A DNA stretch of 64,000 nucleotides from Clostridiales bacterium. Lineage in GTDB: Bacteria > Bacillota > Clostridia > Caldicoprobacterales > UBA3941. Both the position numbers and the translations under genes were made by a program. This document shows, in pieces, positions 5,025 through 57,894 of the stretch; the first letter of the stretch is position 1, and every line of letters starts with the position of its first letter. The stretch spans positions 1-64,000 of the forward strand of contig JAAYGY010000002.1 in assembly GCA_012735575.1 (NCBI GenBank), given 5' to 3'. Under the pieces are notes generated by a model, which did no database searches, was not told the origin of the DNA, and was given only the letters and a program-made list of their open reading frames with translations.

Positions 5025-6002
5025 ATGCCTATTATCACTTATCGTGAAGCCTTGAGAAGTGCCATGGATGAGGAGATGGCAAGAGATGAAAATGTTATTT
5101 TATTGGGAGAAGAAGTAGGCCAGTATGATGGTGCCTATAAGGTAAGCCAGGGACTTTTAGATAAATATGGTCCGAAGAGGGTTATCGATACGCCTATCAC
5201 AGAAGAAGGTTTTACAGGTGTTGGGATTGGTGCCGCTATGGCAGGATTAAGACCCATAGTTGAATGGATGACCTTTAACTTTTCCATAATGGCTTTGGAT
5301 CAGGTCATCAACAATGCTGCAAAGATGAGATATATGTCGGGAGGGCAGTTAAAGGTACCCATTGTATTTAGGGGACCTAATGGTCCTGCAGAATATTTGG
5401 CAGCCCAGCATTCACAGGCACTTCAAACCTTATTTGTTCATATTCCCGGACTTAAGGTCGTTGCTCCTGCTACCCCCTATGATGCTAAGGGGCTTTTAAA
5501 GTCGGCTATTAGGGATGATAACCCTGTAGTCTTTTTAGAGGGGGAGTTAATGTACCCATGGAAAGGAGAAGTGCCAGAGGAAGAATATCTTATACCTATT
5601 GGCAAGGCTGATATAAAACGAGAAGGCAACGATGTCACCATAATCACTTACTCAAAACCATTGCTGGTGGTAGAGCAGGCAGCCAAGGAGTTAGAAAAAC
5701 AGGGTATCCAGGCTGAGATAGTGGATTTAAGATCTTTAAGGCCTATAGACGAGGAAACCATATATAATTCTGTGAAAAAGACCAATAGATGCGTTATAGT
5801 TGATGAATCATGGCCTATGGTTAGTGTAGCATCCCATGTTGGTTGGATGGTATCTCGATATTGTTTCGACTATTTAGATGCACCTGTTGAACTGGTAACC
5901 AGTGAGGATGTACCCATGCCCTACAACCATAAGTTAGAGTTAGCAGTCCAACCTTCTGTTGAAAAGATTTTCAATGCGGTAAAGAAAGTGATGTATATTT
6001 GA
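5025..6002 (+). CDS. pdhB: Pyruvate dehydrogenase E1 component, beta subunit
   Basis: Transketolase-like beta chain of E1. Recognisable blocks are ITYREALRSAMDEEM, VILLGEEVGQYDGAYKVSQG, DTPITEEGFTGVGIGAAMAG, and HSQALQTLFVHIPGLKVV, the last with the active-site His in AAQHSQ. Start: an ATG at 5025, because AGGGGG (5010-5016) is correctly spaced for it. The ATG at 5004 has no ribosome binding site. The 325-residue length is typical. The gap from E1 alpha is 34 bases, and the E2 gene follows after 18 bases, so translation is probably coupled along one mRNA. Confidence 0.92.
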   Translation: MPIITYREALRSAMDEEMARDENVILLGEEVGQYDGAYKVSQGLLDKYGPKRVIDTPITEEGFTGVGIGAAMAGLRPIVEWMTFNFSIMALDQVINNAAKMRYMSGGQLKVPIVFRGPNGPAEYLAAQHSQALQTLFVHIPGLKVVAPATPYDAKGLLKSAIRDDNPVVFLEGELMYPWKGEVPEEEYLIPIGKADIKREGNDVTIITYSKPLLVVEQAAKELEKQGIQAEIVDLRSLRPIDEETIYNSVKKTNRCVIVDESWPMVSVASHVGWMVSRYCFDYLDAPVELVTSEDVPMPYNHKLELAVQPSVEKIFNAVKKVMYI

Positions 6003-25807: not shown

Positions 25808-26494
25808 ATGGAATTGGTATACAAGGGAAAGACAAAGGATATATACAAATTAGAAGATGGCAACTATATTTTTAAATTTAAAGATGATGTGACAGGAGAG
25901 GATGGAGTATTTGACCCAGGAGGGAATACTGTAGTATCAAAGGTTGAGGGTATGGGAAAATCAAACTTAAGAGTTACTAAGTTTTTCTTTGATAAGTTGA
26001 AAGAGTTGGGTATTCCTACGCATTATATAGATGCAGATCTAGATAACAATACTATGACTGTAATGCCTGCAAAGCTGTTTGGTAAAGGTGTTGAGGTAAT
26101 ACTTAGATATAGAGCTGTAGGCAGTTTTATCCGACGCTATGGTGCCTATGCAAAGGAAGGGCAGCATCTGGATGGATATGTTGAAGTCACTTTGAAGGAT
26201 GATAAGAGAAAGGACCCCTTGATTACAGAAGATGGCCTTGTGATGCTTAACATAATGACAAGGGATGAATATAAGACGATCAAAGAGCTGACCAAAAGGA
26301 TTGCCCAAGTAGTAAAGGACGAGCTTGAAAGAAAGGGAATGGAATTGTACGATATAAAGTTTGAGTTTGGAAGAATTGGTGAGGACAACCATATAGGCCT
26401 TATTGACGAGATTTCTGGTGGAAATATGCGAGTTTATAAGAATGGAGAATATGTAGAACCTCTTGAGCTGGAAAGATTAATGTTTGGAGATTAG
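25808..26494 (+). CDS. purC: SAICAR synthase (phosphoribosylaminoimidazole-succinocarboxamide synthase)
   Basis: Joins CAIR and aspartate with ATP. It has YKGKTKDIYKLEDGNYIFKFKDD at the N-terminus, VILRYRAVGSFIRRYG, DPLITED and the C-terminal LIDEISGGNMRVYKNGE (in place of the usual GDEISPDxxR). It is 228 residues, somewhat short of the usual ~235-240. ATG 25808 follows AAGAGGTGA. It is the first gene of purC-L-E-F-M-N-H-D. The SAGNMR for SPDxxR change at the substrate end is noticeable, but the rest of the family core is present. Confidence 0.9.
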   Translation: MELVYKGKTKDIYKLEDGNYIFKFKDDVTGEDGVFDPGGNTVVSKVEGMGKSNLRVTKFFFDKLKELGIPTHYIDADLDNNTMTVMPAKLFGKGVEVILRYRAVGSFIRRYGAYAKEGQHLDGYVEVTLKDDKRKDPLITEDGLVMLNIMTRDEYKTIKELTKRIAQVVKDELERKGMELYDIKFEFGRIGEDNHIGLIDEISGGNMRVYKNGEYVEPLELERLMFGD

Positions 26495-26505
26495 TTGAAT
26501 GTTTT

Positions 26506-26578
26506 GCTCATATAAGTCTCATAATAGGGTTGGGACGTTTCTACAAAATGACCGTAAATCATTCGGCTATGTATGAGC
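26506..26578 (+). promoter_or_regulatory. Variant purine-riboswitch-like aptamer inside the operon, before purL
   Basis: P1 arms GCTCATA (26506-26512) and TATGAGC (26572-26578) enclose GTCTC/GGGAC (P2), J2/3 GTTTCTAC (26537-26544), AATGA/TCATT (P3) and L3 CCGTAAA (26552-26558). A GGG in L2 can kiss CC in L3. Deviations from the guanine consensus: J1/2 reads TAAGTC instead of TAATC, and the 3' side has an extra TATG between GGC and P1. Ligand specificity cannot be read with certainty. Confidence 0.72.
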
Positions 26579-26599
26579 GAAACTATACCTGGAGGTTCT

Positions 26600-36871: not shown

Positions 36872-36888
36872 AACTATGTGACAAGTAG

Positions 36889-36959
36889 CACTCATATAAT
36901 CCTGATAATTGGTTCAGGAGTTTCTACCAGGCAGCCGTAACTGCCAAAGGCTATGAGTG
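36889..36959 (+). promoter_or_regulatory. Purine (guanine-type) riboswitch aptamer
   Basis: P1 arms CACTCATA (36889-36896) and TATGAGTG (36952-36959); J1/2 TAATC; P2 CCTGA/TTCAGG; J2/3 GTTTCTACC; P3 GGCAG/CTGCC; L2 TTGG able to kiss L3 CCGTAA. The base before TATGAGTG (position 74 equivalent) is C, which specifies guanine or hypoxanthine rather than adenine. AAAG before GGC is a small insertion in J3/1. Confidence 0.9.
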
Positions 36960-36998
36960 AATTGTATGATATTGTAGAGCTTTTAAGCTTTCCAATAT

Positions 36999-37044
36999 AG
37001 GCAAATAGATTCACTCAGGTCATGAATCTATTTGCCTCTTTTTT
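36999..37044 (+). terminator. Riboswitch terminator before the permease
   Basis: AGGCAAATAGATTCA (36999-37013) pairs perfectly with TGAATCTATTTGCCT (37023-37037), followed by CTTTTTTC. ATTCACTCA (37009-37017) can instead pair with TGAGTGAAT (36954-36962) from P1, forming the antiterminator. Confidence 0.88.
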
Positions 37045-37096
37045 CATAATATTGAAATTACTACAAGACCTGATAATAACAAAGGAGGAAACACAA

Positions 37097-38434
37097 ATGA
37101 ACGGTTTCTTTGAACGAACTTTTAAGCTAAAGGAGCACAACACAAATGTAAGAACTGAGATTATGGCCGGTATTACAACATTTATGACCATGGCTTATAT
37201 TCTAGTTGTTAATCCCAACATTTTATCTTCTGCCGGCATGGATAGGGGCGCTGTCTTTACTGCAACAGCTCTATCAGCAGCTATAGCTACAATTGCCATG
37301 GCATTTTTAGCTAACTATCCCGTAGCTCTTGCATCGGGAATGGGACTTAATGCTTTTTTCGCAATAGTTGCATCTCAATATTCATGGGAAATAGCATTAG
37401 TCGCTATACTTCTTGAAGGTATTATTTTTATTCTTTTGTCATTAGTCAATTTTAGAGAAGCAATTGTCAATGGTATCCCTGAAAATCTTAAATATGCTAT
37501 AACTGTAGGAATAGGACTCTTTATTGCACTTATTGGTTTACAAAATGCTGGAGTAGTAGTAGCAAGCCCAGATACTATAATGGGACTTGGAGATTTAAAA
37601 AGCATACCTGTAATTTTATCCCTTATAGGATTATTAGGCATTATATACATGACTCATAAGGGAGTAAAAGGTGCGCTCCTTTGGGGTATTTTAGGCACAT
37701 ATGTATTAGGAATTATATGTCAGCTAATTGGACTATATACTGTTGATCCAGATGCGGGTAGATTTGACCTTATTCCATCCTTGCAGCTTATTTCATTGCC
37801 ACCTTCAATAAGGCCTACCCTTTTCAAATTTGATTTTGCTGGAGCTTTTAAGTTAGGATTTGAATTTATAGTTATTATGTTTTCTTTCCTGTTTGTGGAT
37901 ATTTTCGATACAGTGGGAACTCTTATTGGTGTCGCCAGCAAGGGAAATCTCCTCGATAAGGATGGTAAACTACCTAGAGCAAAAGAAGCTCTAATGGCAG
38001 ATGCCATAGGTACTGTTTCAGGTGCTTGCCTGGGTACTTCTACAGTTACCAGCTATGTAGAAAGTGCAGCTGGTGTAGCAGAAGGTGGAAGAACTGGATT
38101 AACTTCACTTGTTACCGGAGTACTGTTTGTAGTGGCTTTAATATTTGCCCCCATCTTTACTGCAATACCTTCCTTTGCAACTGCACCTGCTTTGGTTGTG
38201 GTAGGCTTGTTTATGGTAACAGCTATTACTAAGATTGATTTTAGCGATTTTACCGAAGGTTTACCAGCATTCCTGGCAATTATAATGATGCCCTTTACAA
38301 GCAGTATTGCTGAAGGTATAGTATTTGGTATGCTATCCTGGGTTATTCTGAAAGTAGTCACCGGAAATGCTAAGAAAGTTCAACCCATCATGTACATTCT
38401 TGCAGTATTGTTTATCTTAAAAATAATTCTCTAA
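37097..38434 (+). CDS. NCS2-family purine permease (AzgA/PbuG-like)
   Basis: A 445-residue, about 13-TM transporter of the AzgA-like NCS2 branch, probably carrying guanine/hypoxanthine or adenine. The N-terminus is FKLKEHNTNVRTEIMAGITTFMTMAYILVVNP, with GMGLNAFFA and the later DIFDTVGTLIGVASK (TM8 region), then GTSTVTSYVESAAGVAEGGRTGLTS. The ATG at 37097 follows AAAGGAGG; the longer open frame to 37022 begins inside the terminator. A guanine riboswitch and PurBoxes upstream support purine import. Confidence 0.93.
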   Translation: MNGFFERTFKLKEHNTNVRTEIMAGITTFMTMAYILVVNPNILSSAGMDRGAVFTATALSAAIATIAMAFLANYPVALASGMGLNAFFAIVASQYSWEIALVAILLEGIIFILLSLVNFREAIVNGIPENLKYAITVGIGLFIALIGLQNAGVVVASPDTIMGLGDLKSIPVILSLIGLLGIIYMTHKGVKGALLWGILGTYVLGIICQLIGLYTVDPDAGRFDLIPSLQLISLPPSIRPTLFKFDFAGAFKLGFEFIVIMFSFLFVDIFDTVGTLIGVASKGNLLDKDGKLPRAKEALMADAIGTVSGACLGTSTVTSYVESAAGVAEGGRTGLTSLVTGVLFVVALIFAPIFTAIPSFATAPALVVVGLFMVTAITKIDFSDFTEGLPAFLAIIMMPFTSSIAEGIVFGMLSWVILKVVTGNAKKVQPIMYILAVLFILKIIL

Positions 38435-38536: not shown

Positions 38537-39763
38537 TTATAGGCCAAATTCATCAATTAGCATATCCATTGCTTGTTTTTCATGGATTTTATCAATAAAA
38601 CAATCGATTCTTATGTTAGAAGTAACTGAAGCTTTAATGGGGATATTATGCCTGGTGAACAGCTCAAAGACGCTGGCGGCTATTTTTGGATGTTGTTCTA
38701 GACCCAATCCTTCAATAGACAACTTTACAATATTGGTATCCAGCTTTATGGATAGGCCACTATCTTTTGAAACCAGATCTTTACAAAAGCTCTCCGCTTG
38801 TTGAAGATTATCTGCTGACAGAGCAAAAGCTATATCACTCATTCTGTCTGCAGGAGAGGTTTGACTAATTAACTCCAAATAATTATTTCCGCCAGCAAAT
38901 TCTCTATATATATTTGCAATGGTATTAAGCTTTGCAGGCGCGTTACGAATAGATACCAGAATAATATTGTCGTGAGTAGTAATATTGGTAACTGGACTTC
39001 TATCATCTAGTACATTTTTCATATTATATAATCCAGGAGCTCTATTTGCCATATATCTTGCTGCCCTGAGTGCTCCTACGGCAAATATCTGTTTAGAGTA
39101 TGCAGTATGTTCTATTTCAATAGTTTCATCGTTTCCAGCAAACAAAACTGTATGCTGCCCTACAATGGTGCCTCCGCGAATAGCATGGATTCCTAGGTCA
39201 GAAGGAGATCTCCTTTCATTTTTAGAATGCCTGCCATATATATAGTTTTTCGAATTTAGAAATACTTCATTTATAGCATCTGCCAAGGCATAGGCGGTTC
39301 CACTGGGAGCATCAATTTTCTGATTATGATGCTTTTCAATAATTTCTATATCAAAGGAATCGCCAAGCACCTGTGCTGCTTTTTGAATAAGTTGGTACAT
39401 CAGATTAACACCTACAGACATATTGGCAGCTTGTAAAATGGGTATGGTTTTGCTGTATTCTGTTATGGTTTCCAGTTCCTTTGGACTAAAGCCTGTAGTT
39501 GCAATTACAAGGGCACAATTTCGTTTAACAGCTGCGTCAAGCAAAGAGGGCAGAGCCTTAGGCAGGGAAAAATCTATTATAACATCACAATCCTCGCTGC
39601 ATTCTGCTAATGACGAGTATACCGGGAATGGGTTATCATAGGCATCGGTAACTCTGTCGATTCCGGCCACAACTTGTATATCAGGTTGTTTAACTGCCAT
39701 AGATGCAACTACTTGCCCCATCTTACCATTACATCCATGGATAATTATTTTTGTCATATGCAA
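38537..39763 (-). CDS. dapB: 4-hydroxy-tetrahydrodipicolinate reductase fused to tandem ACT domains
   Basis: DapB makes tetrahydrodipicolinate with NAD(P)H in lysine/diaminopimelate synthesis. Residues 1-255 are a complete DapB: IIIHGCNGKMGQVV, FSLPKAL, ATTGF, MSVGVNLMY and the catalytic EKHHNQKIDAPSGTA. Normal DapB ends there (about 250-270 residues). Here ~150 more residues follow (about 258-408), aligning with the aspartokinase ACT-ACT module: NIILVSIRNAPAKLNTIANIY for ACT1 and VKLSIEGLGLEQHPKIAASVFE for ACT2, ending in DEFGL. That suggests allosteric control, for example by lysine, but the ligand is unproven. TTG start at 39763, RBS AGGAG. It is downstream of asd under a lysine riboswitch. 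Confidence 0.9.
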   Translation of the reverse strand: MHMTKIIIHGCNGKMGQVVASMAVKQPDIQVVAGIDRVTDAYDNPFPVYSSLAECSEDCDVIIDFSLPKALPSLLDAAVKRNCALVIATTGFSPKELETITEYSKTIPILQAANMSVGVNLMYQLIQKAAQVLGDSFDIEIIEKHHNQKIDAPSGTAYALADAINEVFLNSKNYIYGRHSKNERRSPSDLGIHAIRGGTIVGQHTVLFAGNDETIEIEHTAYSKQIFAVGALRAARYMANRAPGLYNMKNVLDDRSPVTNITTHDNIILVSIRNAPAKLNTIANIYREFAGGNNYLELISQTSPADRMSDIAFALSADNLQQAESFCKDLVSKDSGLSIKLDTNIVKLSIEGLGLEQHPKIAASVFELFTRHNIPIKASVTSNIRIDCFIDKIHEKQAMDMLIDEFGL

Positions 39764-39810: not shown

Positions 39811-40818
39811 TTAAGATTCATTTTGCCAGTACCATATTAGCTTTTCAGCAATTTGGACAGTATTGGTGGCAGCACCTTTCCTAATGTTATCAGCAACAAC
39901 CCATAAGTTAATCCCGTAATCAACGCTTTCATCCCTTCGGATTCTGCCTACAAAGACCTGATCCTTTCCATTACATTTTATAGGCATTGGATATTGATTG
40001 TTTACAGGATCGTCAATTACTTCAATACCTGGAGCATTAGCTAATAGATTTTTCAATTCTTCTAAATCAAAATCCTGTTTTAGTTCTACGTTTATAGATT
40101 CACTGTGTCCGTTGTATACAGGAACCCTAACGGTTGTAGCAGTGATTCTCAAACTATTATCGTTGAAGATTTTTTTGGTCTCTTGGATCATCTTCATCTC
40201 TTCTTTAGTATATCCATTGTCTAAGAAGGAATCAATATGAGGTATACAATTGCTAAAGATAGGATGAGGGAATTTTTTTGGTTCTTCTCCCTTAATACCA
40301 TTTTCTAGGTCTTTGTATCCTGCCACACCAGCTCCTGAAACAGCTTGATAGGTGGAATAGACAATTCTCTTGATACCATACTTGTCATATAAAGGCTTTA
40401 AGGCGACTACAGCCTGTATGGTAGAGCAATTGGGATTGGCTATTATACCCTTATGGTTAAGAACTTCTTCCGGGTTTACCTCGGGAACCACTAAAGGTAC
40501 ATTTGGATCCATCCTCCATGCACTACTGTTATCAATAACTACTATTCCCTTTTCAGCAGCAATAGGAGCATAGGTTTGGCTTACACTGCCTCCTGCAGAA
40601 AATAGAGCAATGTCTATATCCTTACCGTCAAAGCATGTAGGAGTAAGCTCTTCTATTACATAGTCCTTGCCCATGAAATTAATGACTGAGCCGGCAGATC
40701 GAGCAGAAGCAAACATATAGTATTTGTCAATAGGTAGCTGTTTCTCCTCTAGGACTTCCAAAAATTTACGACCTACCATTCCAGTAACTCCAACTATTGC
40801 AAGATTATACTTTTTCAT
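39811..40818 (-). CDS. asd: Aspartate-semialdehyde dehydrogenase
   Basis: Reduces aspartyl-phosphate to the semialdehyde. The N-terminus NLAIVGVTGMVGRKFLEVLEE is the NADP fold. The catalytic Cys lies in NPNCSTIQAV. FSNCIPHIDSF, PVYNGHSESI and the C-terminal NLWVVADNIRKGAATNTVQIAE complete the family. It is 335 residues. First gene after the lysine riboswitch on the minus strand; dapB follows after 47 bases. Confidence 0.95.
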   Translation of the reverse strand: MKKYNLAIVGVTGMVGRKFLEVLEEKQLPIDKYYMFASARSAGSVINFMGKDYVIEELTPTCFDGKDIDIALFSAGGSVSQTYAPIAAEKGIVVIDNSSAWRMDPNVPLVVPEVNPEEVLNHKGIIANPNCSTIQAVVALKPLYDKYGIKRIVYSTYQAVSGAGVAGYKDLENGIKGEEPKKFPHPIFSNCIPHIDSFLDNGYTKEEMKMIQETKKIFNDNSLRITATTVRVPVYNGHSESINVELKQDFDLEELKNLLANAPGIEVIDDPVNNQYPMPIKCNGKDQVFVGRIRRDESVDYGINLWVVADNIRKGAATNTVQIAEKLIWYWQNES

Positions 40819-40866
40819 AATTTGCCTCCCTAATATATAAAATTAAAACTTATCCAAATAAAATAA

Positions 40867-40887
40867 CGGCTGATGTATCACCAGCCG
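40867..40887 (-). terminator. Terminator of the lysine riboswitch
   Basis: On the minus strand CGGCTGGTG pairs with CATCAGCCG around ATA, followed by U-rich TTATTTTATTT. It lies between the aptamer and asd. Confidence 0.8.
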
Positions 40888-40925
40888 CTTTCGCCATACT
40901 TGTAGAAATAACAAGTCCTACGAAA

Positions 40926-41098
40926 GCAGTTAGCTCTCCATCAAATTAATATTTGATGACAATCCTAGAGTTATTTACCCTAGGACCAAGGTATAAATTG
41001 CGGATCTTTATACCTTTCGGCATCTTTTCCTTTAGGTTCCTTCAACGAATTCCGCCTTCTCCGGTAACTTACTCATAAAAGATGCACCTCTAAACTGC
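40926..41098 (-). promoter_or_regulatory. Lysine riboswitch (L box)
   Basis: Read on the minus strand, the element begins with GCAGTTTAGAGGTGC and ends with GGAGAGCTAACTGC, giving P1. Conserved L-box blocks in order: AGAGGTGC, GAGTAA, GAAGGAACCTAAAGG, GATGCCGAAAGG, GGTCCTAGGG, and GTCATCAAAT...ATTTGATGGAGAGCTA. It precedes asd-dapB, so lysine should shut off these genes by termination. Confidence 0.93.
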
Positions 41099-41150
41099 AT
41101 TTGGATATGAAAACTAAACTTGTTTTATAGAGTTAGTTTGTTTTCAATTT

Positions 41151-41179
41151 ATGATACCATTGATAAATGCGGATGTCAA
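41151..41179 (-). promoter_or_regulatory. Promoter of the asd-dapB leader
   Basis: On the minus strand: TTGACA (41179-41174), a 17-base spacer, TATCAT (41156-41151). Close to consensus and correctly placed before the lysine aptamer. Confidence 0.82.
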
Positions 41180-41523: not shown

Positions 41524-42399
41524 ATGAAAGAGTGGGGACGATTGCTTACTGCCATGGTGACACCTTTTGATGAAAATTTGGATGTTGATTATGATAAGGC
41601 TGTGGAGCTTGCCAAAAAAATTATTGATGATGGTAGTACAGCTATAGTTGTAGTAGGAACTACAGGGGAGTCTCCTACGCTGACATCTGAAGAAAAGTAT
41701 GAGTTATTTAGGATACTAAAAAGGGAAGTAAATGCACCAATAATAGCAGGCATTGGTACCAACTGCACTAGAGCAACTATAGAGGCAGGAAAATTAGCTA
41801 TCGAGAGCAAGGCTGATGGAGTAATGGTAGTTGTACCATATTACAATAAACCTAATCAAAAAGGCCTATATGAACATTTTAGGACTGTTGCTGAAGCTAT
41901 TGATCTGCCTATGATGCCCTATAATGTTCCATCAAGGACTGGTGGTAATATGGAAGCTGAAACTACTATAGCCCTATCAAAGATACACAATATTGTAGCA
42001 GTAAAAGAAGCTAGTGGAAATATGGATCAAATTACCAAGATAATTGCTGGATGCCATAAGGATTTCCTAGTCTATTCAGGAGATGATGCCTTTACCCTTC
42101 CAACCTTGTGCGCTGGTGGGTATGGAGTGGTCAGTGTAGCGGCACAAGTTGCTGGACGTAAGATAAGGGAAATGATAGATGCTTATGTAAACGGCGATAT
42201 TAACACAGCGGCCAAAATTCACCAAGCTTTAAATCCCCTGTTCAATGCATTGTTTATGACTACAAACCCCATACCTGTTAAAGCTGCTTTAAATATAATG
42301 GGAATGAATGTTGGTGGATTGCGCTTACCTTTGGTAGAAGCCGATGAAAAGGTAAAAGATACATTAAGGGAAGAATTACACTCTTTGGGCCTTATATAA
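41524..42399 (+). CDS. dapA: 4-hydroxy-tetrahydrodipicolinate synthase
   Basis: Condenses pyruvate and aspartate semialdehyde. VVVGTTGESPTL, the catalytic Tyr Y133 in PYNVPSRTGG and the Schiff-base lysine K161 in VKEASGNMDQ are at the standard positions. It is 291 residues. ATG 41524 follows GAGGAGG. It is divergent from the asd-dapB transcript; no riboswitch was seen on this strand. Confidence 0.95.
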   Translation: MKEWGRLLTAMVTPFDENLDVDYDKAVELAKKIIDDGSTAIVVVGTTGESPTLTSEEKYELFRILKREVNAPIIAGIGTNCTRATIEAGKLAIESKADGVMVVVPYYNKPNQKGLYEHFRTVAEAIDLPMMPYNVPSRTGGNMEAETTIALSKIHNIVAVKEASGNMDQITKIIAGCHKDFLVYSGDDAFTLPTLCAGGYGVVSVAAQVAGRKIREMIDAYVNGDINTAAKIHQALNPLFNALFMTTNPIPVKAALNIMGMNVGGLRLPLVEADEKVKDTLREELHSLGLI

Positions 42400-56735: not shown

Positions 56736-56811
56736 GCCAATATAGCTCAGATGGTAGAGCAACGGTCTCGTAAACCGTAGGTCAGGGGTTCGAGTCCCCT
56801 TATTGGCTCCA
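56736..56811 (+). tRNA. tRNA-Thr (anticodon CGT)
   Basis: Acceptor stem GCCAATA/TATTGGC, D arm GCTC...GAGC, anticodon stem ACGGT/ACCGT with loop CTCGTAA, T arm AGGGG TTCGAGT CCCCT. CCA is encoded. Confidence 0.95.
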
Positions 56812-56818
56812 TATTCTT

Positions 56819-56895
56819 CGGGATGTGGCGCAGTTTGGTAGCGCACTTGCTTCGGGAGCAAGGGGTCGCAGGTTCAAATCCTGTCATCCCGACCA
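56819..56895 (+). tRNA. tRNA-Pro (anticodon CGG)
   Basis: Acceptor stem CGGGATG/CATCCCG (the C1-G start typical of tRNA-Pro), anticodon stem CTTGC/GCAAG with loop TTCGGGA, T arm GCAGG TTCAAAT CCTGT. CCA is encoded. It follows tRNA-Thr after 7 bases. Confidence 0.95.
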
Positions 56896-57635: not shown

Positions 57636-57894
57636 TCATATCAATGTGATGATGAAGAGGAGTACATTTTTAAGGCCGACAGAAAAGGAAATCCGCTGGC
57701 TGAGAGGTTTCCCCGGTTCAAGAAAATGGAAGGTCGCTTCTGAACATTTCAGCTGAAATGTAAGTAGGCTGGAACGCTAATCCCGTTAAAGATTTTGAGC
57801 GTTTGCTTATGTATTGTATACTACTATATAAGCAAAAAACAAGGTGGTACCGCGGAGTCTTACGTCCTTGTCCTTAGGATGTAAGGCTTTTTTT
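57636..57894 (+). promoter_or_regulatory. T-box leader (valine-type)
   Basis: Stem I (GATGAAGAGGAGTAC to GGTCGCTTCTGAAC) is followed by stem II/III, the T-box sequence AAGGTGGTACCGCGG at 57841-57855, and a terminator (CTTACGTCCT 57859-57868, AGGATGTAAG 57876-57885, then TTTTTTT). GTC (Val) at the specifier position in GAAGGTCGCTTC fits the downstream valS. The specifier base positions are inferred. Confidence 0.9.

Follow-up and report, generated by a model that had tools for sequence, protein, structure and literature searches.

Why should DapB, an enzyme whose characterized bacterial representatives are described as plain homotetramers (PMC3390394), carry a regulatory unit of the kind found in aspartokinases? 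The question is raised by a gene in the window, by which we mean the whole 64,000-nucleotide stretch of Clostridiales DNA analyzed here (genome G000). The gene is a single open frame at 38537-39763 on the minus strand, stop codon included, and its product has 406 to 408 residues. The ATG at 39757 agrees with the start of homologues, and a TTG at 39763, two codons upstream, is better placed with respect to an AGGAG sequence, leaving the start defined to within two residues. Read from the ATG, the coding region (38540-39757, minus strand) divides into a DapB catalytic part (residues 1 to 250; 39008-39757) and a tandem ACT pair of the aspartokinase regulatory-subunit type (residues 256 to 406; 38540-38992). 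The DapB model TIGR00036 matched residues 2 to 251 over its whole length (E = 2e-68; 230.9 bits against a curated cutoff of 122), and aspartokinase models matched residues 248 to 405, the best being NF005656 (E = 4.5e-23). The second ACT domain (residues 346 to 404; 38546-38722, minus strand) also matched Pfam ACT_9 (PF22468) above the gathering score (E = 1.7e-8), and a search of the PDB with the tail alone returned aspartokinases as its sole matches (3l76, E = 6.7e-20; also 5yei, 2re1, 2dtj, and others). These matches confirm the preliminary description of this DNA, which had proposed that DapB is joined here to an ACT-ACT tail of the aspartokinase type. Domain searches found no kinase catalytic domain in the fusion protein, where DapB occupies its place, and the fusion is therefore not an aspartokinase. 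A chance match is ruled out by the E values and by the many fused homologues in separate genomes, and an assembly artifact by some 20 distinct fused homologues that share the same junction.

The DapB part of the fusion is apparently intact. It is 40% identical to Escherichia coli DapB and contains both the NAD(P)H loop GCNGKMG and the catalytic motif E-HHxxKxDAPSGTA, with the equivalents of E. coli H159, H160, and K163; loop and motif were retained across 13 aligned fusions. No second, unfused dapB was found in G000, where a weak match (C73) fell below the cutoff, and because the genome thus has no other dapB, the DapB part of the fusion is likely to be active as a reductase. In its full catalytic part and its active-site motif, the protein resembles other members of TIGR00036 (E. 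coli DapB; Staphylococcus aureus 3qy9), whereas the DapB structures matched in the PDB comprise about 215 to 330 residues without an ACT tail, to which the fusion adds about 150 regulatory residues.

An AlphaFold2 model of the whole fusion protein (pLDDT 84.7) matched DapB structures, and the ACT pair modeled alone, from 34 aligned sequences, reached a pLDDT of 91.8 and a pTM of 0.84. The best Foldseek matches of the latter model were all aspartokinase regulatory domains (2re1_A, TM 0.89/0.90), and comparison with the Corynebacterium glutamicum aspartokinase (CgAK) structure containing Lys and Thr (3aaw) gave TM values of up to 0.90. We confidently predict from these models that the tail is a tandem ACT fold of the aspartokinase regulatory-subunit type; at the level of the model, this excludes the possibility, considered in the preliminary description, that the tail is not an ACT fold. 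The modeled tail shares its topology with the beta subunits of alpha2beta2 aspartokinases (C. glutamicum 2dtj/3aaw, Mycobacterium tuberculosis 3s1t, and Pseudomonas aeruginosa 5yei; TM 0.84 to 0.90) and keeps the equivalents of CgAK Q298 and S381. Unlike those subunits, it is attached to DapB rather than to a kinase and lacks three features of the threonine region of CgAK: D-x-P-G, A279, and N374. Among fusion pairs with unsaturated dS, dN/dS was ∼0.05 to 0.12 for the ACT part, compared to 0.035 to 0.09 for DapB, which rules out a relic. Judged by these ratios, the tail is under strong purifying selection and, being constrained, is taken to be functional.

The fusion had at first been treated as a single oddity. 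A search for further DapB-ACT fusions revealed instead a family that has free-standing and aspartokinase-borne forms as well. Our collection scan identified twelve fusions (in Caldicoprobacter, Christensenella, Mahella, uncultured Clostridia, and two Spirochaetota MAGs) and 24 loci in which dapB ends at ∼250 residues and is followed by a separate ACT-pair open reading frame (ORF). Across 196 sampled Clostridia genomes, which include related and hence nonindependent genomes, the fusion was present in 14, a free ACT-pair ORF in at least 30, and a LysC-type aspartokinase with ACT domains of the same subfamily in at least 24. Aspartokinase ACT domains assigned to this subfamily scored ∼145 to 182 bits against the family profile, compared to at most 132 for other aspartokinases. 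Among the genomes listed, the free ORF immediately followed dapB on its own strand in 30 of 30, the LysC-type gene lay just downstream of dapB in 18 of 24 (often with a dapD-like gene between), and no two of the three forms occurred together in any genome.

The free pairs (for example, in Acetivibrio mesophilus, L048, and Monoglobus, L021) belong to the same ACT subfamily as the fusion tail and occupy the same operon position, often under a lysine riboswitch (L-box). Unlike the tail, they are encoded by separate genes with their own start codons, ATG in most cases, and usually with a ribosome-binding site, which is clear in many of them; their frame may be that of dapB or another. Stop-codon readthrough from dapB into an ACT ORF in the same frame is ruled out as a general explanation by the start codons that most free ORFs possess, the many ribosome-binding sites, and the several ORFs in another frame. 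The dapB-linked aspartokinases of some Clostridia families (L148 to L165) likewise carry the same ACT subfamily, with its QTxP and TTSE motifs, just downstream of dapB, but they retain the kinase domain, are separate proteins, and usually have the dapD-like gene in between. These loci (in genomes G022, G109, G054, and others) are organized as asd-dapA-dapB-(dapD-like)-lysC operons, and in most of them the protein encoded between dapB and lysC has 237 to 273 residues and is taken as a putative DapD.

A tree built from 109 ACT pairs placed the fused tails in one group (96/96), the free pairs in another (98/99), and the dapB-linked aspartokinases and their close kin in a third (98/94), with other aspartokinases apart. 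A QTxP-type motif occurred in 24 of 26 linked-clade aspartokinases, 30 of 39 free pairs, and 18 of 21 fusions, compared to none of 22 other aspartokinases; conversely, D-x-P-G was absent from all linked-clade aspartokinases, free pairs, and fusions and present in 19 of the 22 others. The QTxP motif and the loss of D-x-P-G, common to the fused, free, and dapB-linked forms, thus set them apart from other aspartokinases. Sister tests among the three rejected no grouping, and two long dapB-ACT gaps (L166 and L046) contained no detectable kinase-domain remnant. The ACT pair probably derives from dapB-linked LysC, and the simplest reading, whose direction we infer, is that one ACT subfamily was born there and persists without the kinase. 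Loss of the kinase is the most likely origin, with the branching order of the fused, free, and aspartokinase ACT domains left undecided by the tree: the kinase half of lysC would have been lost, giving a free ACT-pair gene beside dapB, which would then have been fused to DapB in one lineage.

The fusion gene lies downstream of asd (aspartate-semialdehyde dehydrogenase; 39811-40818, minus strand; NF011456, E = 9e-141), and the L-box that the preliminary description had placed upstream of asd-dapB was recovered as a full-length RF00168 aptamer at 40923-41100 on the minus strand (cmscan, 124.1 bits, E = 9.2e-33). No other L-box was detected in G000 (2.59 Mb, 96% complete). The aptamer is oriented in the sense direction and is followed by an expression platform with a terminator-like hairpin at 40865-40889 (minus strand; an 11-pair stem, then ATTTTATTTG), as in an L-box operon, and the leader region gave a folding z score of -5.9. 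Farther upstream, a promoter-like TTGACA-17-TATCAT at 41151-41179 (minus strand; 11 of 12 consensus matches, extended TG) is only suggestive, such sites being no commoner in the region than in shuffled sequence. L-boxes precede many of the other fusion and free-ACT operons. Other fusion loci that have all three genes show the order asd-dapA-dapB-ACT, with L006 and L203 as exceptions. In the window's own family (the window, L006, and L203), dapA is divergent from asd-dapB (in the window, 41524-42399, plus strand; TIGR00674, E = 8e-102) and of another type, 38 to 47% identical to the dapA of other loci; in contrast to the order elsewhere, this reads as a local replacement or relocation.

Several other elements were observed nearby. 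The window has purine riboswitches at 26488-26589 and 36872-36973 (both plus strand), the latter preceding a permease-like membrane protein of 470 residues (37022-38434), and, a short distance beyond two tRNA genes (56736-56892), a full-length T-box leader at 57640-57872 (plus strand; 117.6 bits). In the close relative L006, a group II intron match lies downstream of the fusion gene (5804-5880, minus strand).

What the ACT pair would bind can be approached through CgAK, in which changes at Q298, I272, N372, I375, E382, S381, T361, and A279 have been examined for feedback inhibition (PMC10464499). Of 21 fusions mapped on this enzyme, all kept S381, 20 kept Q298, and 16 kept E382; D274, G277, A279, and N374, retained in other aspartokinases, were largely lost. 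The L-box and the kinship with LysC make lysine the most probable ligand in the family at large. The window's tail keeps Q298, N372, I375, and S381 and loses D274, G277, A279, N374, and E382. In its own family (G000, G147, and L006), the Glu of the TTSE motif, E382 in CgAK, is replaced by Asn or Ser, and lysine sensing is less certain there as a result; the lysine pocket may be altered. The preliminary description had aligned the tail with the regulatory ACT domains of lysine-sensitive aspartokinase. The aspartokinase kinship stands, and the label "lysine-sensitive" does not follow from it, given the substituted Glu and the loss of the D-x-P-G and N374 residues of the CgAK threonine region.

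These substitutions, together with the long branch leading to the window's family (1.82 changes per column), would fit a site that has drifted, so that the pair regulates DapB there with a ligand other than lysine, be it a different amino acid of the aspartate family, DAP, or dipicolinate, or with none. We consider this unlikely: the equivalents of S381, Q298, N372, and I375 are kept in a tail under purifying selection, and the L-box on the same operon shows that lysine is sensed at the RNA level. The tail might instead only stabilize or oligomerize DapB without sensing anything, as its somewhat faster evolution relative to DapB and the differences in ligand residues among fused lineages could suggest. 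That seems improbable for a tail in which the S381 equivalent is invariant, Q298 nearly so, and TTSE present in most members, which is under strong purifying selection and which has free-standing counterparts beside unfused dapB genes.

If the ACT pair is a sensor, its target need not be DapB. The pair has its nearest homologues and structural matches among aspartokinase beta subunits, and it shares its ACT subfamily with the dapB-linked LysC genes; it could accordingly be a beta-type subunit acting in trans on an aspartokinase in an alpha2beta2-like arrangement, with DapB as a mere carrier or as a tether joining the two enzymes. We hold this to be quite unlikely. The conserved fusion partner is DapB rather than an aspartokinase, and in every fused and free-ACT genome checked except G170, one or more aspartokinases come with a complete ACT region of their own, so that none of these genomes visibly has an ACT-less aspartokinase awaiting a beta subunit. 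In G170, which is 87% complete, no aspartokinase catalytic domain was found despite the presence of a DapB-ACT fusion. The two aspartokinases of G000, one DapG-type (PRK08210) and one PRK09034-type, both belong to other ACT classes. With no ACT-less aspartokinase seen to need the pair in the genomes checked, DapB is its simplest target. The DapG-type gene of G000 adjoins dipicolinate synthase genes (DpaA/DpaB), and the source organism is presumed from these genes to be a spore former. HTPA is also the source of dipicolinate where DpaA/DpaB are present, and DapB then catalyzes the first committed step toward DAP and lysine.

The preceding enzyme bears on where lysine would act. At the lysine-site positions H53, H56, and E84 of E. 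coli DapA, the window's DapA has S53, K56, and A84. The lysine-contacting H56 was kept in the DapA of 18 of 19 free-ACT loci, compared to 0 of 15 fusion loci with a readable dapA, in all of which it is Lys, Arg, or Gln. According to a review, H56K and E84T are C. glutamicum-type substitutions that abolish lysine inhibition of DapA (PMC10464499). With H56 absent from every one of these 15, the fusion loci probably lack lysine control at DapA; the window's DapA is predicted to be lysine-insensitive, and DapA and DapB may trade places as the step under lysine control.

Taken together, the conservation of the fusion, its intact catalytic motifs, the modeled ACT fold, purifying selection, the linkage to dapB, and the L-box support reading the tail as a sensor. 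With modest confidence, we propose that the ACT pair is an amino acid sensor drawn from the dapB-linked LysC subfamily that now controls DapB and most likely binds lysine. The fusion gene would yield an active DapB with a covalently attached sensor, namely, the tandem ACT unit of a LysC-type subfamily that other Clostridia encode downstream of dapB. The pair would dimerize and bind an amino acid end product, for which lysine is the leading candidate across the family; binding would change DapB activity in the tetramer, and HTPA reduction would become a feedback point in addition to the L-box acting on the mRNA. It is likely that the ACT pair controls DapB, although the fusion or the gene neighborhood could also serve coexpression only. 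More tentatively, and at somewhat less than an even chance, the sensor may have moved along the pathway in Clostridia, starting in a lysC gene located after dapB, becoming a free regulatory subunit of DapB, and ending as a domain fused to DapB, thereby shifting protein-level lysine feedback from aspartokinase to DapB.

Enzyme-level regulation in Vibrio natriegens and E. coli has been described for aspartokinase and DapA, with DapB not named (PMC12925634), in agreement with the initial view that the DapB step is not usually feedback regulated. Our search of the open literature, which did not extend to subscription literature, returned no published description of a DapB-ACT fusion or a dapB-linked ACT protein. 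The fusion would belong to a known class, that of ACT-regulated biosynthetic enzymes, and allosteric control of DapB is not described in the sources consulted. If our proposal is correct, DapB would be regulated in many Clostridia, among them gut and thermophilic genera, by an aspartokinase-derived sensor present as a subunit or a domain, and dozens of free ACT-domain ORFs beside dapB would gain a predicted function. The aspartokinase-borne, free, and fused forms offer a natural series in which to study how an allosteric module switches enzymes. For spore formers such control may matter, as DapB acts just after the branch to dipicolinate.
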